64,000 bases of DNA from Paludibacter sp. 47-17 (GTDB lineage Bacteria; Bacteroidota; Bacteroidia; Bacteroidales; Paludibacteraceae): contig MKVT01000009.1 of NCBI GenBank assembly GCA_001898935.1, positions 186,001 through 250,000 of the forward strand. Reading direction: 5' to 3'. Both the position numbers and the translations under genes were made by a program. Every line of letters starts with the position of its first letter. Within the stretch, counting starts at the first letter, position 1. The notes beneath the pieces are model-generated. The model had not been told where the DNA came from, ran no database searches, and saw nothing but the letters and a program-made list of their open reading frames with translations. Shown piece by piece: positions 43,019 to 61,463 of the stretch.

Positions 43019-46000
43019 ATGAAAAAATTGCTACACATCTCAGCTTTACTTGTGGTGCAGCTTCTCTACACCCAAAGTTACGCAGCGGCCGTCATGCCGC
43101 AGGTGAGTGCCGGATCAGTGGAATACTGGTACCACATTTCTTTTCAAAACGGCACAAACATGGTGCTTCAGGACAATGGAGAAGATGCCATTCTGACCAC
43201 ACAGGCTATTTCGGTAGGAGCAGACAATCAGCTTTGGAAATTTGAAGCATCTGCAACAAGCGGAGAGTATGTTTTTACTTCAAAAGCGGGCAGAAAAATT
43301 TATTGGGACGGAACTGCTTCCCGATTCAAGGCAGGAAGCGACGACACACCCACCAATATTAAATTCATTGCCTCTGCAAACACAACCAGACCCAATTCAT
43401 GGGAATTGCAACGCACCGGATCGACCCGGGCTATGAATCCAAACGGCGGAGCAAGCGCCGGCAGCCAAATAGGCGAATGGTACCTGGGCGATATCGGCAA
43501 CACGATCAAATTCCACACCGCACCTTTTAAAACAAGCTCGGGAGCTACCGAGTACTGGTATCAGCTCGTATTTCAGCGATACACCGGCAACCTGGCTATC
43601 CGCGACAATGGTGAAGATGCGATCCTTACCTCCGAAACACTGGTGGCAGGCGCCGAAAATCAGCTCTGGAAGATTGAAGTATCAGTTAATCCCGGTTTTT
43701 ATATTTTCACGTCGAAGGCAGGGCGAAAAATCTATTGGGACGGAACTGCTTCGCGATTTAAAGCAGGAAGCGACGATACCGGAGTCGATCTTAAAACCTT
43801 AATGTCGGGCAACAACGACTACGCTCTGTCCTGGGAACTTCAGCGGACCGGATCGAGCAACGGATTAAATCCATACGGAGGTTCGTCGGCCGGAAGACAA
43901 TTAGGAGAAACGACCTTGGGAGATGGCGGGAATGTACTGAGATTTATTTCCGCACAGAATTTTCTCCGGAATGCCATAACTACTGCACAGAATAAACTGA
44001 CGAACACCCTTGCAGGAAGCGATCCGGGCACGTATACCACCGCCGACCGTACAACACTGGGAAATGCCATTAACACGGCAATAACCGCTTTGTCAGGCTC
44101 CTCGACCGATGCAGAATACCTGACTGCCAAGACCAACCTGGAAACGGCTGTAAGTACGTATACCAATTCGGTAATCACACCTCAACTCAGCACGCCGGGG
44201 GACGAACGTTGGTATTATATCCAGGGAACACGTCCGGCCAACACCTACCTGTCGAGCAACGGAGCAGGGGCTCAGCTTTCATCCAAAACCGTAATACCCG
44301 ACGACACCCAGTTATGGAAATTTGTGGCCAATACCAACAGCCCGGCCAATGGTTTTGCAATGGTGAATAAAGCTACCGGCGAATACCTGAACGCCAACAC
44401 CCCCTACAACACCAGCATCAATTCGGTGGCAACCATGCCCACCAATAATCTGCAATTTATCGCCAGCGATATCTACTCTGATAAAATAGTTCGCTTCTGG
44501 ATCGAAAACACTGCCGGATCGACACCTGTTTTCCGCCTGCACGCAGGTAATCCGAATATATTGAACTGGAACGGTAATGCATACGACAACAGTAGCTGGC
44601 TAATCCTGGACTACAACGTGGCACAGAAAGTTTTCCTTCAAACCAGCATCAACGACGCTGCCGGTTTATTGGCCGGTACTACCCAGGGAAGTTATTTTGG
44701 AGAATACACTGCCGAAGCCCGCAGCACCTTACAAACAGCTATAAACACTGCTCAGGCCGTTCACGATGATCCTTCGGCAACGATCACCGAAATTCAAGAT
44801 CAGCGGACCGCCATACAGGCTGCAATCGCTACTTACAAAGCAGCTGCAAACTCCGATATCAACGGACTTGTTTCGACCAGCCCCTACAAGTACCGTTGGT
44901 ACAGAATTAAAAACAGAAATTATTCCTCTAACGATATCATAAGCTCCAATGGAGTTGCGGAAAATGGCGGTATAATCACACAAAATGCAGGAACTGCTAC
45001 CGACAACGAACTGTGGCGGTTTGAAATAAATACCGGAGGAACGGCTGTGAAAATCATCAACAAAGCAACCGGCCTGGCTATCAAAGAAAACGGTCAAAGC
45101 GCCCAATCTACTTTAGTAAAACCGGCAAGCGCCACCGAGTTTACCTTCACGCGTATTGATCTGTTTTGGGCCATCGGACGTGTAGGTGCAACGCAATATC
45201 AATACCTGCATCGTGACGGATCTTCGCGATTAGTAGGCTGGGAATCGTCGGCAACAGCTTCCAACTGGGCATTGCAATTTGTAGAGGAAGCCGAAATACC
45301 CCTTGGCATTCCTGTAGCCCCGATGGTATCAACTACCGATAAACCGGTATATTACATGATCCAGTCGGCCTCCAACGGTTCGGTCAACTTAAGTGGCGGA
45401 GGGAAAAATTACCTGGATCATTTACTGTATGCACCGACCAACACCAACAATGTGAATCTCAAACACGATAAACGCTCGACCCTTATCGGCGCCGGCATCA
45501 GTATGGATAATGCATTATGGCAACTGATCGAAGAAGGAGGGAAACTTAAACTAAAAAACAAAGGTACCGGGCTGTATATGAACGATGCACGCTTCGGTAC
45601 AACGGTGAGCGATCAAACCTTCTCGGCTGTTCCGATAAGCGGCACCACCAATCAATACCTGCTTAAGACTTCAACCCAGGCGAATCCCGCGGTAGCCTGG
45701 TACAATGAGGCTAACGGCAACTATATTGACCGCTGGGGCTCTACCGCCGCCAATAGTCAAGTAGCCTGGTACTTTATTGCTCCTGCATTCTCGGGCACTT
45801 CCGACTTCAGCAATGCTGCCGACTGGACCAATGGTGTCGTTCCTGCCGATAACATGGCCGTTGCGATCAACAGCAACGCTACCATCGCTACCGACAAAGC
45901 GTTTAACGGTCTGCATATCGCTACCGGCAAAACCCTCACGGTAAATGCAGGAAAGGGATTAACCGTTCACAATTCCATCACAGGAAGCGGAACCTTACTT

Positions 46001-47332
46001 CTGAGATCCGATGCTGCCAACGGAACGGCTACCGTAACCGGAAATGTTACCGGCACTGCCACCGTAGAACAACACCTGCCTGCTGCTACCGAACGTACCT
46101 GGTGGTACCTTGCCAGTCCGGTGACCGGAGCTGCATGGACGGTATTCGGCAGCAATCAGGTGGGAAATTACAGCGAATCAACCCGCAGCTACTCGGCTCC
46201 CTTTGCAGCAGCCGAAACACTGGAAGCCGGCAGGGGATATGTAGTGAAAATGAATGCCACAGAGGCAGCAGTGTATCAATTTGCCAACAAAACGCTGAAT
46301 AACGGCAATATTTCGGTGCCGCTTACCCGCTCGGTAACCGGAAACCTCGACAACAAACGTGGTTTCAACCTTGCAGGCAACCCCTATCCTTCGTACCTGA
46401 ACTGGGGAATGGCTTACGATGCCGCCACCAACGTTCGTTCCACGATCTGGTACCGCACCCAAGGGACAAGTGCAATGGAATTCCACACCTATAATGCCGC
46501 ACTGGGCGTAGGAGTTCCCGCGTCGGCGAGCGGATACATACCTCCGATGCAGGCCTTCTGGGTGAAGGTGGACACCGATCCTATCGAGCCTGAAACCGTC
46601 AGCAACGGAACGCTGAACTTCACCAACGCGATGCGTGGTCATGCCAATTCCTCCGAAAACCGCCTGAAAGCTCCGGCTACCGGCACACTACCGCTACTTC
46701 GCCTGGAACTCAGCAACGGAACCGCCAGCGACGAAACGGTGATTACCATCCACGACAGCGCGTCGGACAATTTCGATCGTTACGATTCTGAAAAAATGAG
46801 CAATACCGGTGCAGCTGAAGTATTTACCCTTACCGGAACCCAGGAATTGGTCATCAACGCCCTGGCGAAAAGCGAAGGTAGCAAATCGGTGCGCCTGGGT
46901 ATTCGCCCTGCCGGTGCAGGCAATTTCACCCTGAAGGCGACGGAATTGAAAAACATGGACGATATAGCGCTTATCCTGCACGACCATCAACTCAACACAC
47001 GAACCGAACTTAAGCTGAACGAAAGCTACAGCTTTATTTCCGAAGCCACCGCCACCAACGATCGCTTCAGCGTAGAACTCCGCGCACCGGGAGCCACCAC
47101 CTCGGTAAACGATGTTCCGGACCAACTGAAAGTAGGCGTATCCGTAGCCGGCCGTCTTACCATCGAAGGTCCGGTAACTGCCGGTAGCATCATCGGCGTG
47201 TACAACACGGTAGGACAGCAGGTATTCTCCCAGGCTGCTACCGGTAGTTATACCGAGCTTGACCGCGCGTTACATCCCGGCGTATACATCGTGAAAATCA
47301 ATAACACATCCATTAAAGTAACTGTAAAATAA
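43019..47332 (+). CDS. Large modular T9SS-secreted protein (repeated RICIN/beta-trefoil-like modules, FIVAR-like helical repeats, C-terminal secretion tail)
   Basis: Repeated 'NGEDAILT...NQLWK.E......F.FTSKAGRKIYWDGTASRFKAGSDD'; 'GSDPGTYTTADRTTLGNAINTAITAL'; C-term 'GVYNTVGQQVFSQAATGSYTELDRALHPGVYIVKINNTSIKVTVK'. Confidence 0.85.
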   Translation: MKKLLHISALLVVQLLYTQSYAAAVMPQVSAGSVEYWYHISFQNGTNMVLQDNGEDAILTTQAISVGADNQLWKFEASATSGEYVFTSKAGRKIYWDGTASRFKAGSDDTPTNIKFIASANTTRPNSWELQRTGSTRAMNPNGGASAGSQIGEWYLGDIGNTIKFHTAPFKTSSGATEYWYQLVFQRYTGNLAIRDNGEDAILTSETLVAGAENQLWKIEVSVNPGFYIFTSKAGRKIYWDGTASRFKAGSDDTGVDLKTLMSGNNDYALSWELQRTGSSNGLNPYGGSSAGRQLGETTLGDGGNVLRFISAQNFLRNAITTAQNKLTNTLAGSDPGTYTTADRTTLGNAINTAITALSGSSTDAEYLTAKTNLETAVSTYTNSVITPQLSTPGDERWYYIQGTRPANTYLSSNGAGAQLSSKTVIPDDTQLWKFVANTNSPANGFAMVNKATGEYLNANTPYNTSINSVATMPTNNLQFIASDIYSDKIVRFWIENTAGSTPVFRLHAGNPNILNWNGNAYDNSSWLILDYNVAQKVFLQTSINDAAGLLAGTTQGSYFGEYTAEARSTLQTAINTAQAVHDDPSATITEIQDQRTAIQAAIATYKAAANSDINGLVSTSPYKYRWYRIKNRNYSSNDIISSNGVAENGGIITQNAGTATDNELWRFEINTGGTAVKIINKATGLAIKENGQSAQSTLVKPASATEFTFTRIDLFWAIGRVGATQYQYLHRDGSSRLVGWESSATASNWALQFVEEAEIPLGIPVAPMVSTTDKPVYYMIQSASNGSVNLSGGGKNYLDHLLYAPTNTNNVNLKHDKRSTLIGAGISMDNALWQLIEEGGKLKLKNKGTGLYMNDARFGTTVSDQTFSAVPISGTTNQYLLKTSTQANPAVAWYNEANGNYIDRWGSTAANSQVAWYFIAPAFSGTSDFSNAADWTNGVVPADNMAVAINSNATIATDKAFNGLHIATGKTLTVNAGKGLTVHNSITGSGTLLLRSDAANGTATVTGNVTGTATVEQHLPAATERTWWYLASPVTGAAWTVFGSNQVGNYSESTRSYSAPFAAAETLEAGRGYVVKMNATEAAVYQFANKTLNNGNISVPLTRSVTGNLDNKRGFNLAGNPYPSYLNWGMAYDAATNVRSTIWYRTQGTSAMEFHTYNAALGVGVPASASGYIPPMQAFWVKVDTDPIEPETVSNGTLNFTNAMRGHANSSENRLKAPATGTLPLLRLELSNGTASDETVITIHDSASDNFDRYDSEKMSNTGAAEVFTLTGTQELVINALAKSEGSKSVRLGIRPAGAGNFTLKATELKNMDDIALILHDHQLNTRTELKLNESYSFISEATATNDRFSVELRAPGATTSVNDVPDQLKVGVSVAGRLTIEGPVTAGSIIGVYNTVGQQVFSQAATGSYTELDRALHPGVYIVKINNTSIKVTVK

Positions 47333-47341
47333 ATATTCATT

Positions 47342-47509
47342 ATGAACAACAAGCAAATCAAACCCTACGAAAGTCCGGAAATAGCATTAGTACTGCTTGA
47401 CCACGAAATCTCACTGCAACTTGCATCGGATCCGGATCCGATGGGAGAACCCGACTGGACAAGTAAGGCTCAAGACAATTTCACGAGCGATCCTTATCAA
47501 TTAATCTGA
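47342..47509 (+). CDS. Small conserved protein (55 aa), not in supplied ORF track: MNNKQIKPYESPEIALVLLDHEISLQLASDPDPMGEPDWTSKAQDNFTSDPYQLI
   Basis: Translated by hand; ATG 9 nt after the 43019 gene; 37/55 residues identical to the ORF at 55749-55916; followed by an intrinsic terminator. Confidence 0.85.
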   Translation: MNNKQIKPYESPEIALVLLDHEISLQLASDPDPMGEPDWTSKAQDNFTSDPYQLI

Positions 47510-47540
47510 TGAAGCACAGGCTAATTGAATGAATACCCCA

Positions 47541-47579
47541 AACAGGAAACACCCCGGAAGTGTGTGTTTCCTGTTTTTT
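47541..47579 (+). terminator. Rho-independent terminator after 55-aa ORF, 20 nt upstream of sialidase start
   Basis: aacaggaaacac / gtgtttcctgtt perfect 12-bp stem then T tract. Confidence 0.9.
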
Positions 47580-47599
47580 AACACCCAAGTATCAAATCC

Positions 47600-50500
47600 A
47601 TGAAAAAACTCGTACTTTTTTTAAGTGTATTGCTCTGGTGGAGCCTGCAAGGCTTTTCATTGCTTGCACAAGTAAACGGCACCGCTTCGCGGCCGGTAAT
47701 TTCAACTGCAGCTACACCGGTTTATTATTACATCGAATCGGCATCGAACGGGACGGTAACCGCCGGCTCAGGAACCGCCAATTACCTGGGAAATCTGATG
47801 TATGCTCCCTCCGCTACCAGCGGCGTGAGGATTAAGCACAATCTCAGAGCATCCATCACTCCCCTCGATAATGCTCTGTGGCAACTCATCAGCGAAGGTG
47901 GTGCGCTGAAACTTAAAAACAAAGGTACAGGCTTGTACCTGACCGGAAGTCATACCGGCGTGACGTCGACCACCAATACCTATATTTACAGCGAATACGG
48001 TTCGACCACTCAATTCGTAATGCGCACCAGCGACCAGGCCAGTTTTACGATAGCCTGGGGAAGCAACAATCTGGATCGATGGGGAACCTCCTTGGGCGCC
48101 AACAGCCAGACGGCCTGGTATTTCATTTCGCCTTCGGAACTGAATTCCAGGATTGCCGAGGCGGTAGGACTGTTCAACACCACTAAAGCCGGCGTACATC
48201 CGGGCCAATATCAGGAAGCAAGCCGCAGCACATTTTCCACTGCTATACAAAATGCGGTTGCTGCACGCGACAACGCCGATGCCGGCGACGATGCCGACGC
48301 CCTCTCTACCCTCACCACCGCTATCACCACCTATCAGAACTCGCAAAACCAACTTCAGATCAGCTCGGGCAGCAACGAATACTGGTACTGGATTAAAGGC
48401 ACACGAGGATCGGCAGCCACCGCTTTGTACGCCGAATTCCAGTCGGCTGGCACACAGGTGCTCAACAAGGACAGAGCCCTGACCGACAAGCAACTCTGGA
48501 AGATTGTAGCCAATGGCAGCGGATATGCGCTTCAAAACAAAGCAAGCGGGACGTATATGAATACGAATATCGCGAACAATACTTTACTAAAAACAGAAAC
48601 TGCACCACCAACAGCAAAACCGGTTTATTTTAATAAATCGACCTATGCTACGGATGCTGTAGATAAGATTCAATATTATTTGATCGAAGACAATACTACG
48701 TCAACAGGTGTTTCTTTCCGGATGCATGCGGGGGGAAGCAGTCATAACTGGGGACTGATGAACTACACAGGCGGCATTTCCGACAATTGCTCGTTCCAGT
48801 TTCTTGCCTACGATCCCGACGATGTACTCTCGACTGCCATCACCGAGTGCGAATCGGTATATACAAAAGCAGTTACCGGTACAAATCCCGGGCAATACAC
48901 TCCGGACAACAAAGCCACGTTCCGCGCAGCCATCGATGCAGCGATAAGCGTCAACATCAGCAGCTCGGCCACCAGTGAAGAAAAGACCACAGCTGCAGGC
49001 ACTCTGAACCAGGCAAAATCCACTTTTACAGCAAGCCGCAATCCGATTAAGTTAAGCACCGCCGGGGATGAGGTGTGGTACTATATTGTTTCGGCTCACT
49101 CGGGATACAGTTCGGGCCAGGTGATGACCAACCAGAACAACACTGCCGGCACCAGCATTCTGTATTCCGCTAAAACCCAGGATCCGAATAAGCTCTGGAA
49201 ATTCACCGATAGGGGAAATGGTAAGGTAGCGATTCAAAATCGCGCTTCCTCGCTGTATATTTCGGCTAATCCTCGCAACGACGGAACCACCGCAACGGCC
49301 GTCGGCTTCAACGTCGTCTGGCTGAGCGAAGGGGCTCAGTTGCTGATGAATGCAGACGGACAATCCTACCTTCACGCACAACAGGCAGGCACGGTTATCG
49401 TTACCTGGGGCACCAGCGATGTCAATTCGGCTTCGGCCTGGCGCCTAGAAGAAATACCTGCTGCGGACGAAAATCTACCCGTCGGCATCACTTCGGTGAG
49501 TGTCAACCAAGGTACCTACACTACTACCGGACGCGGAAATACCGACCATGGAATGGCCTATGCCACACTGAGCACCAGCGGTTTCGCAGGCACTGCAGCT
49601 GTCACTTCCATCACCGTCGACTTAACCGGAACCAGCCATACCGCCGCCATCGAACGTTTGAAACTCTACTCCACCGGTTCGTCCACCCGCCTCAATCCCG
49701 CTACACACACGCTGCTCAGCGTGGTGGAAGGTCCTTTTACCACCTCCGACCCCATCGTCTTCACACTGAATTCGCCAGCCACTGTTGCTCCCGGCACACA
49801 TCAGTTCTATATTGCCGCCGACATAGCCGAAGAAGCTGCGGAAGGCGCCATCCTCGACAACCGAATTCTCTCGGTAGCTTATACCGACGGGAACAGTCAG
49901 GCACAAACCATCGCTCCGGCAACAACCACGACCCCCCTGCACAGCATTGTATTCCTCACCCGCACGGTGGTCGTACAACCGGGCGATTACGGCTCCGTGA
50001 GCTACCGGATCCCGGCTCTTACTATTGCACCCGACGGCGCATTGGTGGCACTTACCGACAAGCGGAAATACCATTCGGGCGACCTGCCGGCCGACATCGA
50101 CGTAATTGCTCAACGCAGCACCGATGGCGGTAAAACATGGTCGGCGCCGGTTACCGTCGCACAAGGCGCCAGCAGCAGCACAGGATTTGGCGATGCGGCC
50201 ATCATTCGCTCCAACAGCGGCAAGCTGCACGCACTTTACGTGGGCGGACAAGGATTCTTCGCCTCCACAGCAGCCAATCCGATCCGCTCGTACATCTCCA
50301 CCAGCGCCGACAACGGTATCAGCTGGTCGGCACCGCGCGACATCACCTCGCAACTGTATGGCGCCGGATGTAGCGATCCGGTACGGGCCACCTGGCTGGG
50401 CTCTTTCTTCGGCTCCGGACAAGCCCTCTGCCTGCGCGACGGGCGGCTGATGGCCGTGATGGCGGTGCGCGTACCGGATGCAGGGATAAAAAACTATGCA

Positions 50501-52612
50501 GCGTATTCCGACGACGACGGCCTCACCTGGCAGGTATCCAACAAAGCCATCGACGGCGGCGACGAAGCTAAGGTAGTAGAACTCGACAATGGCGACATCC
50601 TGATGAGCACCCGCACCGGCGGCAACCGTCTCTGGACCAAATCGGCCGACAGGGGCGTCAACTGGAGCCCGCAAAGCAGCTGGACCGAGATCTGGGGTAA
50701 TGCCTGCGATGCCGATATCGTTCGCTATACTTCCACCACCGACGGGTACGAAAAAAGCCGGCTGCTCCACACCCTGCCCAATGCCTCCGACCGCCGCAAC
50801 CTCACCATGTGGATGAGCGAAGACGAAGGTACCACCTGGCCGGTGAAAAAAACCATTTGCCCCGGCACCTCGGCGTATTCGTCGGTCACTATTCTCCCCG
50901 ACGGCACCATCGGAGTGTATTTTGAAGAAGATGGATCGAACGCGTACACCATGACCTTCGTGAACTTCAGTTTGAACTGGCTGACCTCCGGCACCGACAG
51001 CTATCAGAATTCGCCGGCAAAAGCGTATCGCACCAAAAACAGCGGTAACTGGAGCGAACCCGGCAACTGGGAAGTAGCTACCCATACGGCCGTGTGGGTG
51101 ACACCCACCCGGCAGCCCACCCATCAATCGCCGGCTATTACGGTTGCCGCCACACACGAGCTCACTATCGATAATGCCGCCACAGCCGACGTGCTTACCG
51201 TAGAAGCCGGTGGAAAACTCACCATCGCCGGAGGAAAAAGCCTGATTGCCAACCAACTGAAATTGAAAGGTAATACCACCGACGGTACCGCCACCCTGCT
51301 GAACCAGGGCAGCTTTACCGGCACCCTCGAAGTAGAACAAGCCCTTACCGGCAAGAGCAGCGCCGAAGCCTCCGACAACTGGTGGTACCTGTCGAGTCCG
51401 GTGAGCAATGCCACTGCAGCTGTATTTCTTACCGGCAACAACAAGTTGGGCTCTTACAACGAAGCGGCAGCCACCTATCCTCAGATTGTCAATTCGACTG
51501 CGATGCTGACACCGGGCACCGGCTATCTGGTACAACTGAACACTGCCGGCAGCTATACCTTCAGCGGAACAGCCAATACCGGCGAAATCACCATCCCCTT
51601 GAGCCGTACCGGAAACAGCAACGCCAAGCGAGGATTCAATCTCATTGGAAATCCTTACCCATCGTACCTCCACTGGAATACCGTCACCGGTTTCGGCACC
51701 GAAAGCCGGCGGACCGATATTCGTCCCACCATTTGGTACCGCACCCGAACGGCAGGCGGAGCCATGGTATTCGATACCTTCGACGGAGAGGACGGCACCG
51801 ACAACGGCAGACAAGGACTGGTCAATGGATTTATTCCTCCCCTGCAGGCCTTCTGGGTAAAAGTGAATGCCGACAACAGCACAACCAACCTGGTGCTGAA
51901 CGACCATCACCGCACTCATCGCACGGGTGCCGGCCACCTTCTGAAAGTTAAATCAGCCGGGGAGAGAAAAGTGATTCGCCTGACTATCGGCAACGGTATC
52001 AACCGCGATGTCACCATCATCTCCACCAATCCCGATGCCGACAGCGGCTACGATGCCCTCGATTCCGAAAAAATGAGTGCCGGAAATACCGCCGTGCCCG
52101 AAATCTTTACCCTGGCAGGAGAACATGAGCTGGTGATTAACAAACAAAAAGAACTGAGGGCGGGGATGCGCTTCGAAGTGGGCATTCGTCCCGGAACGGC
52201 AGGCACCTTCACCCTCAGCTTGAGCGAAGGCACCGTTACCGGCGGATTGGGATGCGAGTTGACCGACCACCACACCGGCGCAGTAACGCAACTGGAGGTA
52301 GGCGACAGCTATACCTTCACTTCCGACGGCAGCGCCGCCAACGACCGTTTCACCTTGCACCTACGCACTCCGGGAGCTATTACGGCCCTACCTCGGGACA
52401 GCATCACCCCGGTGAACGTTTCCACCACCTCCGAAGGGCATCTCCGGATAAGCGGTGCAAAAGCCGGCGGGCAGATACAGGTGTTCGATATCGCCGGCCG
52501 GATGATTTGCTCCGAAACAGCCGGCAAAGAGGAACATATCATTTCCGCCGCTTTGGGGGCCGGCATGTATCTGGTCCGAGTCGGGGACCAGCTGGTAAAA
52601 ATCAACCTTTAA
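47600..52612 (+). CDS. Modular T9SS-secreted sialidase (GH33, BNR/Asp-box repeats)
   Basis: 'VSYRIPALTIAPDGALVALTDKRKYHSGDLPADIDVIAQRSTDGGKTW' (YRIP plus Asp box), 'SRLLHTLPNASDRRNLTMWMSEDEGTTW', N-terminal RICIN/FIVAR-like modules, T9SS tail 'IQVFDIAGRMICSETAGKEEHIISAALGAGMYLVRVGDQLVKINL'. Confidence 0.92.
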   Translation: MKKLVLFLSVLLWWSLQGFSLLAQVNGTASRPVISTAATPVYYYIESASNGTVTAGSGTANYLGNLMYAPSATSGVRIKHNLRASITPLDNALWQLISEGGALKLKNKGTGLYLTGSHTGVTSTTNTYIYSEYGSTTQFVMRTSDQASFTIAWGSNNLDRWGTSLGANSQTAWYFISPSELNSRIAEAVGLFNTTKAGVHPGQYQEASRSTFSTAIQNAVAARDNADAGDDADALSTLTTAITTYQNSQNQLQISSGSNEYWYWIKGTRGSAATALYAEFQSAGTQVLNKDRALTDKQLWKIVANGSGYALQNKASGTYMNTNIANNTLLKTETAPPTAKPVYFNKSTYATDAVDKIQYYLIEDNTTSTGVSFRMHAGGSSHNWGLMNYTGGISDNCSFQFLAYDPDDVLSTAITECESVYTKAVTGTNPGQYTPDNKATFRAAIDAAISVNISSSATSEEKTTAAGTLNQAKSTFTASRNPIKLSTAGDEVWYYIVSAHSGYSSGQVMTNQNNTAGTSILYSAKTQDPNKLWKFTDRGNGKVAIQNRASSLYISANPRNDGTTATAVGFNVVWLSEGAQLLMNADGQSYLHAQQAGTVIVTWGTSDVNSASAWRLEEIPAADENLPVGITSVSVNQGTYTTTGRGNTDHGMAYATLSTSGFAGTAAVTSITVDLTGTSHTAAIERLKLYSTGSSTRLNPATHTLLSVVEGPFTTSDPIVFTLNSPATVAPGTHQFYIAADIAEEAAEGAILDNRILSVAYTDGNSQAQTIAPATTTTPLHSIVFLTRTVVVQPGDYGSVSYRIPALTIAPDGALVALTDKRKYHSGDLPADIDVIAQRSTDGGKTWSAPVTVAQGASSSTGFGDAAIIRSNSGKLHALYVGGQGFFASTAANPIRSYISTSADNGISWSAPRDITSQLYGAGCSDPVRATWLGSFFGSGQALCLRDGRLMAVMAVRVPDAGIKNYAAYSDDDGLTWQVSNKAIDGGDEAKVVELDNGDILMSTRTGGNRLWTKSADRGVNWSPQSSWTEIWGNACDADIVRYTSTTDGYEKSRLLHTLPNASDRRNLTMWMSEDEGTTWPVKKTICPGTSAYSSVTILPDGTIGVYFEEDGSNAYTMTFVNFSLNWLTSGTDSYQNSPAKAYRTKNSGNWSEPGNWEVATHTAVWVTPTRQPTHQSPAITVAATHELTIDNAATADVLTVEAGGKLTIAGGKSLIANQLKLKGNTTDGTATLLNQGSFTGTLEVEQALTGKSSAEASDNWWYLSSPVSNATAAVFLTGNNKLGSYNEAAATYPQIVNSTAMLTPGTGYLVQLNTAGSYTFSGTANTGEITIPLSRTGNSNAKRGFNLIGNPYPSYLHWNTVTGFGTESRRTDIRPTIWYRTRTAGGAMVFDTFDGEDGTDNGRQGLVNGFIPPLQAFWVKVNADNSTTNLVLNDHHRTHRTGAGHLLKVKSAGERKVIRLTIGNGINRDVTIISTNPDADSGYDALDSEKMSAGNTAVPEIFTLAGEHELVINKQKELRAGMRFEVGIRPGTAGTFTLSLSEGTVTGGLGCELTDHHTGAVTQLEVGDSYTFTSDGSAANDRFTLHLRTPGAITALPRDSITPVNVSTTSEGHLRISGAKAGGQIQVFDIAGRMICSETAGKEEHIISAALGAGMYLVRVGDQLVKINL

Positions 52613-52620
52613 CTTTTCAC

Positions 52621-52659
52621 AAGGTCTTGAAAGCATTCGGCTTTCAAGACCTTTTTTTA
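52621..52659 (+). terminator. Rho-independent terminator after sialidase 1
   Basis: aggtcttgaaagc-attcg-gctttcaagacct then ttttttt. Confidence 0.92.
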
Positions 52660-52738
52660 TCACTCCCGCTTTCTGTTCCCCTTATGTTAAATCGTCGTCC
52701 CGTGTACAATAAAAGGTAAAGAACGAACGAAATTGACC

Positions 52739-52767
52739 TTTGTGTTGACACCTATGCTGTAGCTTTG
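52739..52767 (+). promoter_or_regulatory. Putative Bacteroidetes promoter (TTTG-N17-TAGCTTTG) for 52791 gene
   Basis: TTTG at 52739-52742 and TAGCTTTG at 52760-52767, 24 nt upstream of ATG. Confidence 0.55.
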
Positions 52768-52790
52768 CCTCAACTAATTATCAATACTTT

Positions 52791-55739
52791 ATGAAGAAAC
52801 TTATTTTATTGGCACTGATCCTGTGTAGCATACAGGGCTTTGCAAAACGGTACCTGGTACAAACAGGAGCTCCCGGCGCAGCCACATGGAGGGCAGCCGG
52901 AGACGGAGAAGAGCTGGTCGACCTGACGGCGAATGGTCAATCGTTCAACACATGGTACAATGCGACTGTAATTTCAACCGATGAAGTGTGGATTGCGGCA
53001 GGAAACTACGTATTGAGTGGAGTCAACACGGTCAGTCAATCGAATCATTCGGTGTATGGCGGCTTCGCCGGTACAGAGGTTCAACCTTCGGACCGGGCAA
53101 AGGGAAGCGTTGCCTGGGCATTCACGAACGAAACAATCCTGGACGGAAATAATGCAACCCAGGTTTTACTTGCCGGCGGCCCCTTGTCGAATGTGGTATT
53201 CGACGGCATCACCATCACTAAAAGCACCGCGTCCAATGCAGCCGCGCAGTTCAGAAGCGGGGTAACCCTGCAAAATTGCAAAATCACAAACAATACTTCA
53301 ACGGGGAACGGAGGCGGAATTAACTTGTACAACGGAGGCAGTGTAACGAACTCCTATATTGCCGCAAACCTGGCATCACACGGAGGCGGAATATATTCGA
53401 ACACTGCTAATGCCGAAACTGCTTCCATTACGGGTTGTTTGATCGAAGACAACAGAGGCAGCTCTACGTGCGGAGGAATACGGGTTCAGGGCGCCGGACC
53501 CGGTACGACAGTAGTCACTAATTGTATTATCCGGGGTAATAAAGGGTGGGACGGAACATCGGCCAAACCAGGAGGAGCTATTTACACGAATTCGGGGAAC
53601 AATAGCTTTATCAATTGCTTGATTGTAAACAACTCGGGCACCAATACCGTTTATTTTAACGGAGGAAATCTATTCAATACAACAATTGCCAATAACGTAG
53701 GACAGGTGTTAATTGCAAGCGCATCAAACTCGATGTCGCTCACCAACTGCCTCGTTTGGGGCAACAAAACCGACACTTCAGGTGCTACCAACACCGGAAT
53801 CACAAGCAACACCGGCAACCTGAACGTAACCATTAAAAATTGCGGCATTTCGCCGGCACCAGGTGCAGGCTGGACGCAACAAGCGAATTTCACCCTCGAA
53901 TACGGAAACGAATCGCAACAAAACGACAAAGGACCCGGTTTCGTTTTACCGACCACTTTCTGGGGTGCTCCCGGCAGCCCCTCCCAACAAACTGAATTGG
54001 AAAATGCGGACTGGTATATCAAAAACACTTCGGGAGCCATCAACAAAGGAACAGCAAACGTAAGCTATACGAACGACTTATCGGGTAACCCGCGTCCTCA
54101 AAACGGAACTTTCGATATTGGCGCTTACGAGCGAATACCCCTGTATTACACATCGGTAAAAACCGGTTCGTGGAGCGTCACCGGCACCTGGAACAGTTCG
54201 ACCGACAAACTTAACTGGACGGCCGCGGTAGACGTTCCTTCCGTATACGACCAAAGCGTTGTTGTTCAAAACGATCATGAAATAAACGTGAATGTCAACG
54301 GCTCATCTACCACACTCATTATTCAACCGAAAGGCAAGCTGACAATCGATGCCGGCCAGACATTAAATCTATCGGCAACGCTTACACTGGAAAGCAACGC
54401 AAACGGAACTGCTACTGTGGTAGACGCCAACACCGACCTTAACGGATTGACTGTTGCAGGAGCCACTTCCGTGCAACACTACCTTCCGGGTGGCGGACGT
54501 ACGTGGTGGTACGTAAGCAGCCCGCTTACCGAAGCATCCAGCACTATATTCGACGGAGATAAGATTGGCAAACATGTGGAAGATTATGAAAATGATGGTG
54601 ACGAAACAACTTCAGCGCCTTATTACACCTCCCCTTTCTCCACTCCCGAAAATCTAAATCCGGGGCGCGGATACATGGTAAAAAGGACAGCTCCCGCCAC
54701 CGGCACGACCTACACCTTCACCGGCGGATCGCTCAACACGGGTAATATTACCCTCACTCCTACCCGCACCGGAACCAGCCAGGGAGCCCGGGGATTCAAC
54801 CTGCTCGGCAATCCGTATCCTTCGTATATCGACTGGGATGCGATTCACGAAGAATCGACCAATATGCGCAACGCAATCTGGTTTCGAACATTTGATACCA
54901 CAACAGGCAGTATGATTTTTCACACCTATGGCGATGGTGATGCCGTACCGGAAATTACATCACCGAAAATTGCTCCGATGCAGGCTTTCTGGGTAAAAGT
55001 GGATAAAGACAACACGCCTGCTTCAGTAACGTTCAGAAACATCCATCGCTCGCATTTCACCACCGGAGCCAATCCGCTGAAAGTGAAAACAGCCGGCAAC
55101 CGTCAGCGCCTCCGCCTCGTCATAAGCAATGGCTCTGCCACCGACGAAACCTTGCTGGTGGGCAAATCGTATGCATCGAATAGCCTGGATAATTACGATA
55201 TTGAAAAAATGTCGGACAACAACGGTGAAATACCTGAAATTTATTCCCTTATCGATCATCAGGAATTGGTGATCAACTCCATGCAGGAACTGAGCGATGG
55301 ATTGGTCGTAGCGCTCGGCATTCGTCCGGGCAAGCCGGGCAATTTCAGTATCGAAACCACACAGTTGGAAAATATCAACGGAAGGGTTATATTGGTGGAT
55401 CAACTTACTGGCACGGAAACAGAGCTAAATCCGGGCTCCGGCTACTCGTTTACCGCCGATGGAACCGCCAACAACCGCTTCAGCCTTGAGTTTCGCGCTC
55501 CGGCTGCTATTACAGGTTTTCACAACGCCAACAGCCAACTCAAGGTGGTTGCGTCCGGCAACAGCATCGTGATCCAAGGATTGTCAGCCGGTAAGGTGGT
55601 ACGTATTTTTAATACAATGGGACAAGAACTTTACAGCGCAACAGTTTCGGCCGACCGTACCGAATTACAGCACTCCTGCTCACCGGGCTTATACCTGGTA
55701 AAAGTGAATAATGAAACCACTAAAGTAACCGTAAAATAA
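52791..55739 (+). CDS. T9SS-secreted right-handed beta-helix (parallel repeat) protein
   Basis: 'NCKITNNTSTGNGGGINLYNGGSVTNSYIAANLASHGGGIYSN' beta-helix repeats, 'GAYERI'; C-term 'VRIFNTMGQELYSATVSADRTELQHSCSPGLYLVKVNNETTKVTVK'. Confidence 0.87.
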   Translation: MKKLILLALILCSIQGFAKRYLVQTGAPGAATWRAAGDGEELVDLTANGQSFNTWYNATVISTDEVWIAAGNYVLSGVNTVSQSNHSVYGGFAGTEVQPSDRAKGSVAWAFTNETILDGNNATQVLLAGGPLSNVVFDGITITKSTASNAAAQFRSGVTLQNCKITNNTSTGNGGGINLYNGGSVTNSYIAANLASHGGGIYSNTANAETASITGCLIEDNRGSSTCGGIRVQGAGPGTTVVTNCIIRGNKGWDGTSAKPGGAIYTNSGNNSFINCLIVNNSGTNTVYFNGGNLFNTTIANNVGQVLIASASNSMSLTNCLVWGNKTDTSGATNTGITSNTGNLNVTIKNCGISPAPGAGWTQQANFTLEYGNESQQNDKGPGFVLPTTFWGAPGSPSQQTELENADWYIKNTSGAINKGTANVSYTNDLSGNPRPQNGTFDIGAYERIPLYYTSVKTGSWSVTGTWNSSTDKLNWTAAVDVPSVYDQSVVVQNDHEINVNVNGSSTTLIIQPKGKLTIDAGQTLNLSATLTLESNANGTATVVDANTDLNGLTVAGATSVQHYLPGGGRTWWYVSSPLTEASSTIFDGDKIGKHVEDYENDGDETTSAPYYTSPFSTPENLNPGRGYMVKRTAPATGTTYTFTGGSLNTGNITLTPTRTGTSQGARGFNLLGNPYPSYIDWDAIHEESTNMRNAIWFRTFDTTTGSMIFHTYGDGDAVPEITSPKIAPMQAFWVKVDKDNTPASVTFRNIHRSHFTTGANPLKVKTAGNRQRLRLVISNGSATDETLLVGKSYASNSLDNYDIEKMSDNNGEIPEIYSLIDHQELVINSMQELSDGLVVALGIRPGKPGNFSIETTQLENINGRVILVDQLTGTETELNPGSGYSFTADGTANNRFSLEFRAPAAITGFHNANSQLKVVASGNSIVIQGLSAGKVVRIFNTMGQELYSATVSADRTELQHSCSPGLYLVKVNNETTKVTVK

Positions 55740-55748
55740 AATACGATC

Positions 55749-55916
55749 ATGAACGAATATCGAAACAACCGCTACGAGCGTCCGGAAATAACACAGGTAC
55801 AACTTGATCTTGAAATTTCACTTCAGCTTGCATCGGATGTAAATCCTATGGAAGAACCCGACTGGACGAGTAAGGCTCCGGAAAATTTCACAAACGATCC
55901 GTATCAACTTACCTAA
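55749..55916 (+). CDS. Small conserved protein (55 aa), not in supplied ORF track: MNEYRNNRYERPEITQVQLDLEISLQLASDVNPMEEPDWTSKAPENFTNDPYQLT
   Basis: Translated by hand; ATG 9 nt after the 52791 gene; paralogue of 47342-47509; followed by an intrinsic terminator. Confidence 0.85.
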   Translation: MNEYRNNRYERPEITQVQLDLEISLQLASDVNPMEEPDWTSKAPENFTNDPYQLT

Positions 55917-55925
55917 GCATCATCA

Positions 55926-55962
55926 CCCGGGAGACCTTCACCAGTCTCCCGGGCGCTTTTTT
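55926..55962 (+). terminator. Rho-independent terminator after second 55-aa ORF
   Basis: cccgggagac / gtctcccggg perfect stem then gcttttttg. Confidence 0.9.
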
Positions 55963-56096
55963 GACCCCTCCTCTCCCGAACGGGAGCAGGCTGCATTCGG
56001 CCTCTGAGGCTTCAGACTGTTTTTCAGCAAGTCCTCTCCTGGAATAAAATTACTATATTTTTATTATCATCGCTTTTATTATTAAACTATTTTATT

Positions 56097-56104
56097 ATCT
56101 TTGC
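56097..56104 (+). promoter_or_regulatory. Putative -7 box TATCTTTG upstream of sialidase 2
   Basis: TAnnTTTG consensus 44 nt upstream of ATG 56148. Confidence 0.5.
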
Positions 56105-56147
56105 CTCCAAAATATTTATTTAATTACTAATTCATCCGGTTCCTATC

Positions 56148-57761
56148 ATGAAAAAACTCTTCGGGATTGCATTATTCGGCGTACTGATGGGAGGTGCGGC
56201 GCTGCCTTTACAGGCATCATCGGCGGGTATCGACTCGGTGCTCGTGCATCAGGGCACGTACACCACTACTGCAATCGGACATCGCGACTACGGTATGGCG
56301 CGGATTGAGGTGTTCGCTTCGGACGAAGGTGCGGTGCTCCACTCGGTAACCATCGACCTGACAGGCAGTTCGCACGCCAAAACAATCACAAAGCTCAAGC
56401 TGTATCATGCGGGCGCTCAGCTCCGGCTGAAAACAGCAAGCCAGGCATTGATAGCCGAAACGAAAGGTCCGAAATCGAATACGAAAGCGGTAGTGCTTAA
56501 ACTTAAAAAACCGCTGCCCCTGGCAAAGGGTCGTACCAACCTGATTGTGGCGGCCGATATTTCGGACAAAGCGGCAGAGGGCGCCATTGTCGACAACCGT
56601 GTATTGTCGATACAGATAAGCAAAGAAGGGGAAAAACAAACCATACGGCCCCAACAACCCGAAACTCCATTGTACAGTATTGTATTTCTGAAACGTACCG
56701 AGGTGCTGAAACCGGGCGACTTCGGCTCGAAGAGCTACCGGATCCCGGCATTGGTAACTGCTGCCGACGGCTCCCTGGTGGTAATGACCGACCGTCGCAA
56801 GTACAACTCGGTCGACCTGCCCGAAGATATCGATGTAGTAGCGCAACGCAGTACCGATGGAGGCAACACATGGTCGGAGCCCCGCATCGTGGCCAAAGGC
56901 ACCGGACACGGCAAAGGCTATGGCGATGTAGCCCTGATCAAGGCCTCCAGCGGCAAACTCATCGCTTTATACGTGGGTGGTCCCGGCCTCTGGAAATCGA
57001 CACCCGAAAATCCCAACCGGCATTATATGTCGACCAGCTCCGACAATGGTCTTACCTGGACAGCCCCTCGTGATATTACCCCGCAGATTTACGGCGCCGA
57101 ATGTGCCGACCCGGTACGGTCGAAGTGGATGGCATCGTTCTTCGGGTCGGGTCAGGGACTAAGCATGCGTTCGGGACGGGTGATGGCCGTAATAGCGGTG
57201 CGCGAACCCGGCAGGAACGGACTGCACAATTACGCTGTTTATTCCGATGACGAGGGTGAAACATGGAAAGTCTCGGAACGTGCTATTGTGGATGGCGACG
57301 AAGCCAAGGTGGTAGAACTCGACAATGGCGACATCCTGATGAGCAGCCGTACGCGCGGCAACCGCCTCTGGGCCAAATCGACCGATGGCGGCATCACCTG
57401 GGGAAACCGCAACAGCTGGAGCGAAATCTGGGGCAATGCCTGCGATGCCGATATCGTACGCTACACTTCGGTGAAAGATGGTTACGACAAGAGCCGCATC
57501 CTCCACACCTTACCCAACCACGCCACCCGCCGCAACCTGGCCGTGTGGATGAGTTACGACGAAGGTACCAGCTGGCCGGTAAAAAAAGTACTCTGCCCGG
57601 GAACCTCGGCCTATTCGTCGGTGAGCATCTTGCCCGATGGCACCGTAGGGGTTTACTTTGAAGAAGACGAGTCGGAGGTATATACCATGACCTTCATCGC
57701 TTTCACCCTCGACTGGCTCTCGTCGGGCAACGACAGCTACAACGCTCCGTACAACAATTAA
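56148..57761 (+). CDS. Sialidase (GH33), compact form with signal peptide but no T9SS tail
   Basis: 'SYRIPALVTAADGSLVVMTDRRKYNSVDLPEDIDVVAQRSTDGGNTW', several Asp boxes, 'ADPVRSKW', 'RILHTLPNHATRRNLAVW'; ends at 'WLSSGNDSYNAPYNN'. Confidence 0.93.
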   Translation: MKKLFGIALFGVLMGGAALPLQASSAGIDSVLVHQGTYTTTAIGHRDYGMARIEVFASDEGAVLHSVTIDLTGSSHAKTITKLKLYHAGAQLRLKTASQALIAETKGPKSNTKAVVLKLKKPLPLAKGRTNLIVAADISDKAAEGAIVDNRVLSIQISKEGEKQTIRPQQPETPLYSIVFLKRTEVLKPGDFGSKSYRIPALVTAADGSLVVMTDRRKYNSVDLPEDIDVVAQRSTDGGNTWSEPRIVAKGTGHGKGYGDVALIKASSGKLIALYVGGPGLWKSTPENPNRHYMSTSSDNGLTWTAPRDITPQIYGAECADPVRSKWMASFFGSGQGLSMRSGRVMAVIAVREPGRNGLHNYAVYSDDEGETWKVSERAIVDGDEAKVVELDNGDILMSSRTRGNRLWAKSTDGGITWGNRNSWSEIWGNACDADIVRYTSVKDGYDKSRILHTLPNHATRRNLAVWMSYDEGTSWPVKKVLCPGTSAYSSVSILPDGTVGVYFEEDESEVYTMTFIAFTLDWLSSGNDSYNAPYNN

Positions 57762-57860
57762 CTTTAGTTTCTTTTTCAATAGAAGTTTCCGGTGAACAAC
57801 CATCACCGGAAACTTCAAGTTAACTCGAGCCGGTTCACTTGCCGGCCAAAATCTATACCC

Positions 57861-60800
57861 ATGAACATCAATTTCCGTACACTTTTACTCCTTTTATCCA
57901 TTACCGGCGCCGGTTTCAGCACTCAGGCCCAGGTAAACGGAACAGCCGTTGCTCCCGCCGCTTCTACCGCATCCAACCCGGTATATTACATGATCGAGTC
58001 GGCTTCCGACGGATCGTACTCCTTCAACGGCTTTACCGGCGACTTCCGCGGCAACGTGATGATTTCGCCCGCAACCGCCGGAAAAATAATCCACAACAAA
58101 CTGAGCACAGCTCCGTCGCAGGATCATGCCTTGTGGCAGATTATCGTGGTAGACGGCGTTCAGGTGCTGAAAAACAAAGGCACCGGCATGTATATGACCG
58201 GTTCGCACAGCGTTGGAACAACTGCAGCCGGCAACGATTTCAACTTCGACCTTATAGCCGGAAAACAATACCGGCTCCGCAACGGCACCTTAAGCTACGC
58301 CAATACCTGGCAGAACAACCTCTGCGACCGCATCAACACCGGCTTTCAGGCCAACAGCCTTACCGCATGGTATTTCATTTCACCATCGCCGCTCGGAGCT
58401 ACCATTGCGACTGCTCAAAGCATACTTACAACCACCCGGGTGGGCGTTCATCCCGGACAATACACATCGGCCAACCGCAAAATCCTGCAGGATGCCATCG
58501 CGGCAGCAATAGCCGCACGCGACAATTCCACTACCGACGACGACGAAACTGCACGGATCACCCTCGAGGCAGCTATCGCCGCCTATCAGAATTCGCAAAA
58601 CGAACTCCGCATCAGCAACGATCAGGAGGAATTCTGGTACTGGATAAAAGCCATGCGGGGCAGCAGCAATGTTGCGCTCTTTGCCGAAAACATGGGCACA
58701 GGAACACAGGTGATCCACAAAGAACGTTCGGTAAAGGACGCCCAACTCTGGAAACTGGTAGCCAGCGGCGAGGGATATTCCATCGTGAACAAACAAGGAG
58801 GCGTATACCTCAACACCGACGTGGCCTACAATGCCCTTATAACTACAACAACCGCCAAGCCTGCCAGGGCTGTATACTTCAACAAATCGAACTACGCTAC
58901 CGATAATACCGAGTATGTTAATTATTATTTAGTGGAGGACACCAAGGTATCGGCATCGGCACAATTCCGGATGCATGCAGGCTCCAGCTCGCACAATTTC
59001 GGACTGATGAACTGGAATGGCGGTATCGCCGACAATTCATCGTTCCAATTCCTGCTGTACGATCCCAACGATTTACTAAACGTAGCTATCATGAGCCACG
59101 AAGAAGTATACGCAGCCAGCCCGCAGGGCACCAATCCCGGAACCTATCCGGCAGCAGCCCGCACGGCCTACCGGGCCGCCATCGATGCTGCCAGAACACT
59201 CAGCAACAACGAGACGGCCACCTCCGAAGAAAAAAACGCAGCGGTTGCGGCCTTGGAAGAAGCTAAAAGCGCTTTCCTGGCAACCCGCAACCCCATTAAA
59301 CTCAGCACCGTCAATGCCGACGTGTGGTACTATATTGTTTCAGCCGGACCCGGTTACAGCAACGGACAGGTGATGACCAACCAGGGCAACACCGCCGGAT
59401 CGATGATCGTGTTCGGAACCAAAGTGCTCGACCCGAACAAACTCTGGAAATTCACCGACGCCGGAAACGGAAAAATAACGATTCAAAATATGGCTTCGGC
59501 CCTTTACATCGCTGCCAACCCGCGCAACGGAGGGACTACCGCCACACCGGTTGCTTTTACTGCCACCTGGATGGGCGCCGATGCACAGTTCCTGTTCAAT
59601 GCCGACGGACAAACTTACCTGCACGCCCAGCAAAGCGGATCGCTGATCGTGACCTGGGCTACCAATACCCTGGGATCGGCTTCGGCCTGGAAACTGGAAG
59701 AATTACCGGCTTCGGACACCACCCGTCCGCTGCGCATTTCGTCAGTAACGGTCAATCAGGGCACCTATACAACTACTTCGATAGGCGCAACCGATCATGG
59801 ATTGGCCAATATCGCCCTGACTACCGACGGCATCCTCGGCAGTGTAAAATTGAAATCGGTTACCATCGACCTGAACGGAACCAGCCGCTCCGCAGCCATA
59901 AAAAGCATCAAGCTGTATCACACCGGCTCGTCGAACCGGCTGAATGCAGCGACTCATACCTTACTGGCCCGGGTCGACAATCCGGCGTCGGTGAACAATA
60001 CTATAAAACTGGAACTTACCACCCCCTATCAATTGCCGGTGGGTGCTACCCAGCTGTATGTGGCAGCCGATATTTCGGAGGAAGCGCTGGAAGGCGACAT
60101 TGTGGACACACGCGTGCACACCATCGACTACAGTTACCTGACCGGCACCGACACTATTGCCCGTCCCACCGCCATTGCCACACCGCTACACAGCATCGTG
60201 TACCTGAAACGCGTACAGGTATTAACGCCGGGCGATTATAATTCGGTAAGTTACCGCATTCCGGCTATCGTAACCGCGGCCGACGGTTCGCTCGTGGTGC
60301 TTACCGATAAACGCAAGTACAATTCGGGCGACCTTCCGGGCGATATCGACATTGTTGCCAACCGGAGCACCGATGGCGGCGCCACCTGGTCGCAACCCGT
60401 GACGGTAGCCTTGGGTACCGGCGGCGGGAAAGGCTTCGGCGATGCTGCTATGGTGAAAGCGAAGAGCGGCCGGTTGATTGCATTATTTGTAGGCGGACCG
60501 GGTTTATTCAACTCGACTCCCGAGAATCCCATCCGTTCGTATATGTCGACAAGCGACGACCATGGAGTAACCTGGACAGCACCCCGCGACATTACGCCCC
60601 TTCTCTACGGTGCACAATGTTCCGACCCCGTGCGCGCCAAATGGCAGGGCTCCTTCTTTGGATCGGGCCATGCCCTGTGCACCCGTTCGGGCCGCGTGAT
60701 GGCGGTGATTGCCGTACGGGAACCCAATATGAGCGGACTGCAGAACTATGCCGTATATTCCGACGACGAAGGCGCTACCTGGAAGGTATCGCAGCGCGCC

Positions 60801-61463
60801 ATCATCGGAGGCGACGAAGCCAAGGTAGTGGAACTCGACAATGGCGATATCCTGATGAGCAGCCGCACCGGCGGTAACCGCCTGTGGGCGAAATCGACGG
60901 ATGGCGGTGAGTCCTGGGGCACAAAAAACAACTGGCCCCAGCTATGGGGAAATGCCTGCGACGCCGATATTCTGCGCTATACTTCGGTAAAGGACGGCTT
61001 CAACAAAAGCCGCCTGCTGCATACGCTCCCCAACGCGTCGGACCGCCGCAACCTCACCATGTGGATCAGCTACGATGAAGGCACCAGCTGGAATACGAAA
61101 AAAACAATCTGCCCGGGTACTTCGGCCTATTCGTCGTTCACCATCCTGCCCAATGGCAATATCGGTGTTTATTTCGAGGAAGATGGCTCGAATGCCTACA
61201 CCATGACCTTCGTTGAATTCACGTTGAAGTGGCTCACCAACGGAGCCGACACCTACGAGCCGCCCCTTACATCGGTCGATGAGCTTAACGACGGGATCAA
61301 CCTGACGGTGATAGACCGCAGGATTTATCTCGATGGGAATACTACCGGATTCCGGATCTATACGCTGGGAGGTATCGAAATCGATGGCGGACAAGCCCTG
61401 GAAAAGGGTGTGTATATCGTAAAGGTCGCCGGCAAAGCTAACCGCAAGTTAATTGTAAACTAA
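57861..61463 (+). CDS. Modular T9SS-secreted sialidase (GH33)
   Basis: Signal peptide 'MNINFRTLLLLLSITGAGFSTQAQ'; RICIN/FIVAR-like modules; 'VSYRIPAIVTAADGSLVVLTDKRKYNSGDLPGDIDIVANRSTDGGATW'; tail 'FRIYTLGGIEIDGGQALEKGVYIVKVAGKANRKLIVN'. Confidence 0.92.
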   Translation: MNINFRTLLLLLSITGAGFSTQAQVNGTAVAPAASTASNPVYYMIESASDGSYSFNGFTGDFRGNVMISPATAGKIIHNKLSTAPSQDHALWQIIVVDGVQVLKNKGTGMYMTGSHSVGTTAAGNDFNFDLIAGKQYRLRNGTLSYANTWQNNLCDRINTGFQANSLTAWYFISPSPLGATIATAQSILTTTRVGVHPGQYTSANRKILQDAIAAAIAARDNSTTDDDETARITLEAAIAAYQNSQNELRISNDQEEFWYWIKAMRGSSNVALFAENMGTGTQVIHKERSVKDAQLWKLVASGEGYSIVNKQGGVYLNTDVAYNALITTTTAKPARAVYFNKSNYATDNTEYVNYYLVEDTKVSASAQFRMHAGSSSHNFGLMNWNGGIADNSSFQFLLYDPNDLLNVAIMSHEEVYAASPQGTNPGTYPAAARTAYRAAIDAARTLSNNETATSEEKNAAVAALEEAKSAFLATRNPIKLSTVNADVWYYIVSAGPGYSNGQVMTNQGNTAGSMIVFGTKVLDPNKLWKFTDAGNGKITIQNMASALYIAANPRNGGTTATPVAFTATWMGADAQFLFNADGQTYLHAQQSGSLIVTWATNTLGSASAWKLEELPASDTTRPLRISSVTVNQGTYTTTSIGATDHGLANIALTTDGILGSVKLKSVTIDLNGTSRSAAIKSIKLYHTGSSNRLNAATHTLLARVDNPASVNNTIKLELTTPYQLPVGATQLYVAADISEEALEGDIVDTRVHTIDYSYLTGTDTIARPTAIATPLHSIVYLKRVQVLTPGDYNSVSYRIPAIVTAADGSLVVLTDKRKYNSGDLPGDIDIVANRSTDGGATWSQPVTVALGTGGGKGFGDAAMVKAKSGRLIALFVGGPGLFNSTPENPIRSYMSTSDDHGVTWTAPRDITPLLYGAQCSDPVRAKWQGSFFGSGHALCTRSGRVMAVIAVREPNMSGLQNYAVYSDDEGATWKVSQRAIIGGDEAKVVELDNGDILMSSRTGGNRLWAKSTDGGESWGTKNNWPQLWGNACDADILRYTSVKDGFNKSRLLHTLPNASDRRNLTMWISYDEGTSWNTKKTICPGTSAYSSFTILPNGNIGVYFEEDGSNAYTMTFVEFTLKWLTNGADTYEPPLTSVDELNDGINLTVIDRRIYLDGNTTGFRIYTLGGIEIDGGQALEKGVYIVKVAGKANRKLIVN

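Follow-up and report, generated by a model that had tools for sequence, protein, structure and literature searches.

Probable precursors of LPP-like modified peptides encoded behind type IX secretion cargo genes in Paludibacter

The closest described relatives of the genes reported here are those of the linear polyphosphorylated peptides (LPPs), with the components LppA, LppB, LppK, LppS, LppD and LppN (Popov et al. 2026, PMC13381572). LppA is the precursor and contains the pattern YxxPxVLxHQxIxFETxxS; LppB is the RiPP recognition element (RRE); LppK is an HPrK-like kinase that polyphosphorylates Ser3 of the core and does not accept an S3T substitution; LppS is a SipW-like peptidase, whose cleavage is aided by LppB; and LppD and LppN are an MsbA-like exporter and an NTP-transferase (PMC13381572). 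YxxP is a leader motif bound by PqqD-type RREs, and is present in both LPP and lasso leaders (PMC13381572). LPPs are described as restricted to the Bacillota, often lying beside capsule loci, and a text search of the same paper found no mention of Bacteroidota (PMC13381572).

The window analysed here – a 64,000-nucleotide stretch of the Paludibacter sp. 47-17 genome – contains two genes for 55-aa peptides, each directly behind a gene encoding a cargo of the type IX secretion system (T9SS). We conclude that these small ORFs probably encode the precursors of a Bacteroidota RiPP system that resembles the LPPs; each lies behind a T9SS cargo gene, and a single operon per genome would process the peptides in trans. 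Among known T9SS components, SprF is the adjacent partner of cargos with type B C-terminal domains (CTDs), and SprF/PorP is an outer-membrane protein. The peptide genes resemble sprF in being adjacent, and apparently dedicated, to a cargo gene, but they encode 55-aa peptides with no signal sequence and are linked to a C-terminal module of the cargo rather than to the CTD alone (TIGR04183/PF18962, as in type A cargos). Small precursor ORFs are also a feature of the Bacteroidales GG-type and radical-SAM RiPP clusters, as presented in the part of the survey by PMC10352776 that was covered; the peptides described here differ in lacking a GG leader, the loci read are free of radical SAM genes, and that part of the survey does not name a class with HPrK and a SipW-like peptidase. 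The open-licence papers covered contain nothing relevant on a link between T9SS and RiPPs, and, as far as that literature shows, what the genes suggest looks like the first tie between a modified-peptide class and the T9SS.

The peptide genes in the window

The first peptide gene, P0002 (55 aa; 47342..47509), and the second, P0001 (55 aa; 55749..55916), are paralogs, and these, like all of the window features given below, are on the forward strand. They are identical at 37 of 55 residues and 127 of 165 nucleotides, and in both pairs 9 nt separate the cargo stop codon from the peptide gene, with gap sequences that differ. P0001 is followed by a terminator at 55926..55962 (a hairpin of -21.3 kcal/mol, z -5.1, then a T-run) and P0002 by one at 47540..47581 (a hairpin of -17.9 kcal/mol, z -4.3, with a T-run), so that the cargo transcript most likely ends with the peptide gene in each case. 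This arrangement had been described in a sequence-only reading of the window and is confirmed here, as is its proposal that the peptide is a conserved protein under selection. Between the two genes dS is 0.77 and dN is 0.19, giving a dN/dS of about 0.24 (NG86) that reflects purifying selection; across the 99-peptide family to which P0001 belongs, dN/dS is below 1 in all 102 testable pairs, with a median of 0.22. A recent duplication of the entire segment of about 9 kb, which would deprive this conservation of its weight, is ruled out: the two cargos align over their C-terminal ~500 aa only (40% identity), and the sialidases are ~60% identical.

A BNR sialidase gene comes next after the peptide gene at both window loci, and the sequence-only reading had proposed a repeated cassette of cargo, peptide, terminator and sialidase. 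The last element holds for these two loci and fails at the other five copies in the genome, where the peptide gene is followed by unrelated DNA, an MFS gene or a further cargo gene; this excludes the sialidase from the unit. The window has three related sialidase genes close together, in 47600-61463, whose products of 1670, 537 and 1223 aa are about 60% identical.

Translational read-through from cargo to peptide would be in frame for both window copies, with their 9-nt gaps, but other copies of the peptide are out of frame with the cargo and read-through is not general. Neither P0001 nor P0002 has an apparent signal peptide. Sequence searches of Pfam, NCBIfam and PDB gave no credible match, ruling out a known, curated small-protein family as the identity of the peptide, and a comparison of 40 peptides with Pfam and NCBIfam gave nothing above chance, including no T9SS CTD on the peptide itself; the CTD is that of the upstream gene. 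No confident fold was obtained for the peptide with AlphaFold2.

The cargo module and the peptide family

The cargo gene of the first pair (43019..47332; 1437 aa) encodes a ricin-type lectin, FIVAR, a C-terminal module and a CTD, and that of the second pair (52791..55739; 982 aa) a beta-helix N-terminal part, the same type of module and a CTD. Both CTDs are Por_Secre_tail/TIGR04183-like, with weak Pfam scores. The module spans ~400 residues before the CTD, has the signature GFNLxGNPYPSYLxW ... PMQAFWVKV ... YDSEKM ... LVIN (GNPYPSYxxW type), is without a Pfam or NCBIfam model of its own, and looks like an undescribed T9SS cargo domain. Module and CTD together occupy 45905..47329 of the first cargo and 54309..55736 of the second (E-values of 8.4e-191 and 2.4e-197 to profile A3, which was built partly from these two modules), and a further copy at 51194..52603 ends the 1670-aa sialidase (47600-52612; E-value of 1.1e-143 to A3, this copy not being among its seeds). 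Of the three window sialidases only this one was seen to have the module and CTD; no peptide gene lies behind it, the next gene beginning 179 nt on. An AlphaFold2 model of the cargo module (mean pLDDT 57, pTM 0.38) was too poor for a fold search.

In a sample of about 100 peptide loci fetched with their flanks, the gene upstream of the peptide encodes the ~400-aa module in 96 of 98 cases (86 of 88 without the profile seed sequences) and a T9SS CTD in 94 of 98, and the median gap to the peptide is 53 nt. A survey for pairs of tail gene and peptide had been suggested by the sequence-only reading, and the partnership with the upstream cargo that it postulated is constant in about 98 loci, also outside the genus; what needs amending is the partner, which is the module before the CTD and not the CTD as such. 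About 120 CTDs of the source genome score above the curated cut-off, yet the genome has only nine modules, of which seven are followed by a peptide, and the GNP[YF] mark of the module is found in none of its 30 best-scoring CTD genes. These numbers, together with the sialidase module that has no peptide, indicate that the peptide tracks the module, and not T9SS cargos generally or sialidases. The two modules without a peptide count against the LPP-like reading. Between paralogs in one genome, peptide identity and module identity are correlated (r 0.63; 0 of 500 permutations), which shows that they have long been inherited together.

All seven peptide homologs in the source genome – six strong and one divergent – are directly behind a T9SS gene. 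One genus among the 60 relatives, most likely Paludibacter, has an expanded family, with 26 copies in one genome (G002), 20 in each of two (G004 and G011) and 18 in each of two more (G019 and G023); outside that genus a single peptide-bearing genome was found among the 60 relatives at that search sensitivity. A profile made from 40 peptides has matches in 33 of the 393 genomes of the order, representing 27 of 207 genera. At two loci (L130:3110-3688 and L097:3527-4254) two tandem peptide genes follow a single cargo gene.

The consensus of 99 distinct peptides is YxxPxIExIxLDNEISLxLxS, then PPxGPxE, then PEYFNNDPFK. In the first half Pro, Asp, Ile, Leu and Ser are invariant (P, D and S in 99/99) and Tyr is present in 98/99, and the C-terminal half (PP.GP.E...PEYFNNDPFK) is conserved as well. 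In P0001 the YxxPxI motif reads YERPEI (55773..55790) and is a candidate RRE-binding leader motif, while the invariant serine, found in all 99 genus-set homologs, is Ser29 (55833..55835), a candidate phosphorylation site for an HPrK-like kinase. The peptides are thus like LppA in having a YxxP motif with a conserved Ser downstream, and the position of Ser29 would be analogous to that of S3 in the LppA core. When set against the full LPP consensus (VLxHQxIxFETxxS), YxxPx[IV] and the Ser agree whereas the middle part, LDxxISLxLxS, differs; the distance from Y to S is 20 rather than 18, and the conserved C-terminal half contrasts with the highly variable C termini of LPP precursors. More distant Bacteroidales homologs have Ser or Thr at the Ser29 position, often Thr, which counts against the LPP-like reading given that LppK refuses S3T.

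An operon for PqqD, HPrK-like kinase, S26 peptidase and ABC exporter

Peptide-bearing genomes carry one operon encoding a PqqD protein, an HPrK-like kinase, a SipW-like (S26) peptidase and an ABC exporter, the last two being fused in one ORF in Paludibacter. The source genome has two PqqD genes only. On contig C34 the gene order is cargo-peptide-cargo-peptide-MFS-PqqD-HPrK-S26/ABC, with 1.6 kb between the tandem cargo-peptide pairs and the PqqD gene downstream of them. The 60-genome set contains 23 strong HPrK loci; PqqD-HPrK-S26/ABC is present at every one, and at seven of these a detected peptide lies just upstream of PqqD (L208, L211, L214, L215, L220, L221 and L226); PqqD and an S26-like domain also share an operon at most order-level loci. 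Other Bacteroidales families have the order T9SS gene-PqqD-peptide-HPrK-S26-ABC (L250, L253, L255, L256, L257 and L266), and three distant peptide homologs sit among genes for PqqD, an HPrK-like kinase, an S24/S26 peptidase and an ABC exporter.

The kinase matches Hpr_kinase_C with an E-value of 5e-4, below the Pfam cut-off, and has a P-loop (GFSGVGKS) and conserved His and Asp. The exporter matches ABC_tran (E-value 6e-30) and ABC_membrane (2e-5) and shares its ORF with the S26 domain, in which the catalytic Ser, His and Asp79 are present in 59 of 59 sequences and Asp85 in 55 of 59, some loci being represented twice. Among solved structures the PqqD protein comes closest to a lasso PqqD chaperone and a lasso RRE (TbiB1), with weak matches to both. 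PF14907 (NTP_transf_5, LppN-type) is found in all 15 peptide genomes checked and occurs also in a control Bacteroides; its gene adjoins the operon in G227, G047 and G061, which represent three families, and lies elsewhere, on C9, in the source genome.

This set shares with the LPP system a discrete PqqD-type RRE, an HPrK-like kinase, a SipW-like SpI/S26 peptidase with Ser-His-Asp and an MsbA-like ABC exporter, and in neither is a lasso B2 found; all of the LPP core functions are present in the Bacteroidales set, as read from its genes. It differs in that the genes are those of Bacteroidales and lie beside T9SS genes, whereas LPPs belong to Bacillota and are often at capsule loci, in having up to about 26 dispersed precursor genes per operon, and in the S26-ABC fusion of Paludibacter. 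The sequence-only reading was too narrow in that it overlooked the strongest clue, the anatomy of a putative PqqD-bound RiPP leader in the peptide and its co-occurrence with this operon. Phosphorylated lasso peptides of the paeninodin type (PMC8498205) have a PqqD-type B1, an HPrK-like kinase, a [Y/W]xxPx[IL] leader motif and an ABC exporter, and a lasso-type YxxPx[LI] leader and a PqqD-type B1 are both present in the Bacteroidales system. The B2 leader peptidase (Transglut_core3, PF13471) is, however, above cut-off in none of 12 peptide-bearing genomes, a SipW-like peptidase taking its place, and the peptides have no Gly1/Asp8-9 ring pattern; lasso identity is ruled out by the lack of B2.

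Peptide and HPrK gene occur together in 22 genomes of the 60-genome set, with three having the peptide only and one the HPrK only (p 3e-12). Co-occurrence arises partly from shared ancestry within the genus, and the order-level result therefore matters: with HPrK counted at E-values below 1e-30, 27 of the 393 genomes have both, six the peptide only, three HPrK only and 357 neither (p about 1e-32, or 2e-27 after dropping genomes that seeded the profiles, those for HPrK and PqqD being partly seeded from loci reached through the peptide). The six peptide-bearing genomes with no detected HPrK and the three HPrK genomes with no detected peptide count against the LPP-like reading, as does the finding that none of the machine genes is within the 64,000-nt window; incomplete assemblies may lie behind some of the unpaired genomes. 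Nearly every such genome has a single HPrK of this type as against up to 26 peptides, so that most peptides, if served, would be served in trans. Most Paludibacter peptides are far from the operon, and that their processing in trans is therefore inferred also counts against the reading.

Possible roles of the peptides

The argument for LPP-like precursors combines the leader-like half with its YxxPxI and invariant Ser, the linkage to module-type cargos, the co-occurrence with the operon and the peptide genes found inside such operons elsewhere. By analogy with LPPs, the PqqD protein would bind the YxxPxI motif of the peptide, nascent or free, the HPrK-like kinase would phosphorylate the invariant Ser29, the SipW-like peptidase would cut close before that residue, and the exporter (fused to S26 in Paludibacter) would send an acidic core of about 27-30 residues to the periplasm. 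The cargo of the same transcript would arrive there through Sec and could meet the core, which might then act on the C-terminal module of the cargo during T9SS transport or surface anchoring. This final step is a guess and the least supported of the series, suggested by a core that is conserved rather than hypervariable and tightly linked to one module. That every module-type T9SS cargo is made with its own peptide, and that the product of the LPP-like machine is needed for translocation, folding or anchoring of that cargo, is a tentative proposal that we consider rather doubtful. Were it true, a RiPP pathway would be a working part of type IX secretion. The LPP-like reading by itself places an LPP-type gene set in Bacteroidales for a class published in 2026 as Bacillota-only and with no role assigned; LPPs gain a concrete biological context, with precursors tied singly to T9SS surface proteins, and the T9SS a possible new accessory pathway. 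It also suggests what the tiny, uncharacterised ORFs with YxxPxI in this order may be.

It is unlikely, though less so than the other alternatives, that the peptide is a small chaperone or adaptor dedicated to the cargo – a protein of the cytosol or periplasm that stays unmodified, binds the module or the CTD and aids T9SS export, with its likeness to a RiPP leader reflecting ancestry without processing. Such a protein would fit the nearly strict linkage to module-type cargos (96/98), the co-variation of peptide and module, the conserved C-terminal half, and the presence of cargo-module-peptide pairs where no HPrK was detected (genomes G326, G335 and G158), but it leaves unexplained why YxxPxI goes with PqqD, why peptide genes lie inside PqqD-HPrK-S26-ABC operons and why the peptide co-occurs with HPrK; with no apparent signal peptide, moreover, it would need help to reach the periplasm. 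AlphaFold2 did not place the peptide on the CTD either: with the two joined (TAA read as Gln), the CTD was well folded and the peptide disordered and undocked, a low-confidence model that is uninformative rather than negative because the alignment is shallow.

RiPPs often act as signal or competition peptides, and the operon, with its exporter and leader peptidase, and the many paralogs per genome would suit a secreted peptide that acts on other cells or on sensors of the producer, the T9SS linkage being one of co-expression with surface enzymes only. We think this quite improbable, since the peptide genes are linked to one cargo module instead of an immunity gene or a regulator, the core shows conservation (omega 0.22) and not diversification, and peptide and module co-vary. 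Peptide and module are often duplicated together, yet the notion of a functionless small ORF that was merely carried along when gene duplication copied the cargo C-terminus is scarcely credible, being contradicted by purifying selection in 102/102 pairs, retention across bacterial families and co-occurrence with the operon.

Several further loci have genes related to those of the putative LPP-like system. The second PqqD gene of the source genome (L195:6745-11621, G000:C18) has a T9SS-tail-like gene upstream of it and, downstream, genes for an ATP-grasp enzyme and a PLP-dependent decarboxylase; the N-terminus of the decarboxylase (MEKKRYERPTLRKMNTGLMNKFGS) resembles a YxxPxL leader fused to the enzyme. 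A second, more distant HPrK type is widespread in Bacteroidales (L227, L228 and order-level matches with E-values of 1e-10 to 1e-27), mostly with no detected peptide of this family, and has an S26-like gene alongside where read. At L227 (G054) HPrK-like, S26-like and PqqD genes accompany a peptide of the more common Bacteroidales type (MKKLYTSPEIEVVEVIEYGFAASEPLG...), so that the numerous orphan small ORFs with YxxPEIEV in Bacteroidales may be part of the same superfamily.
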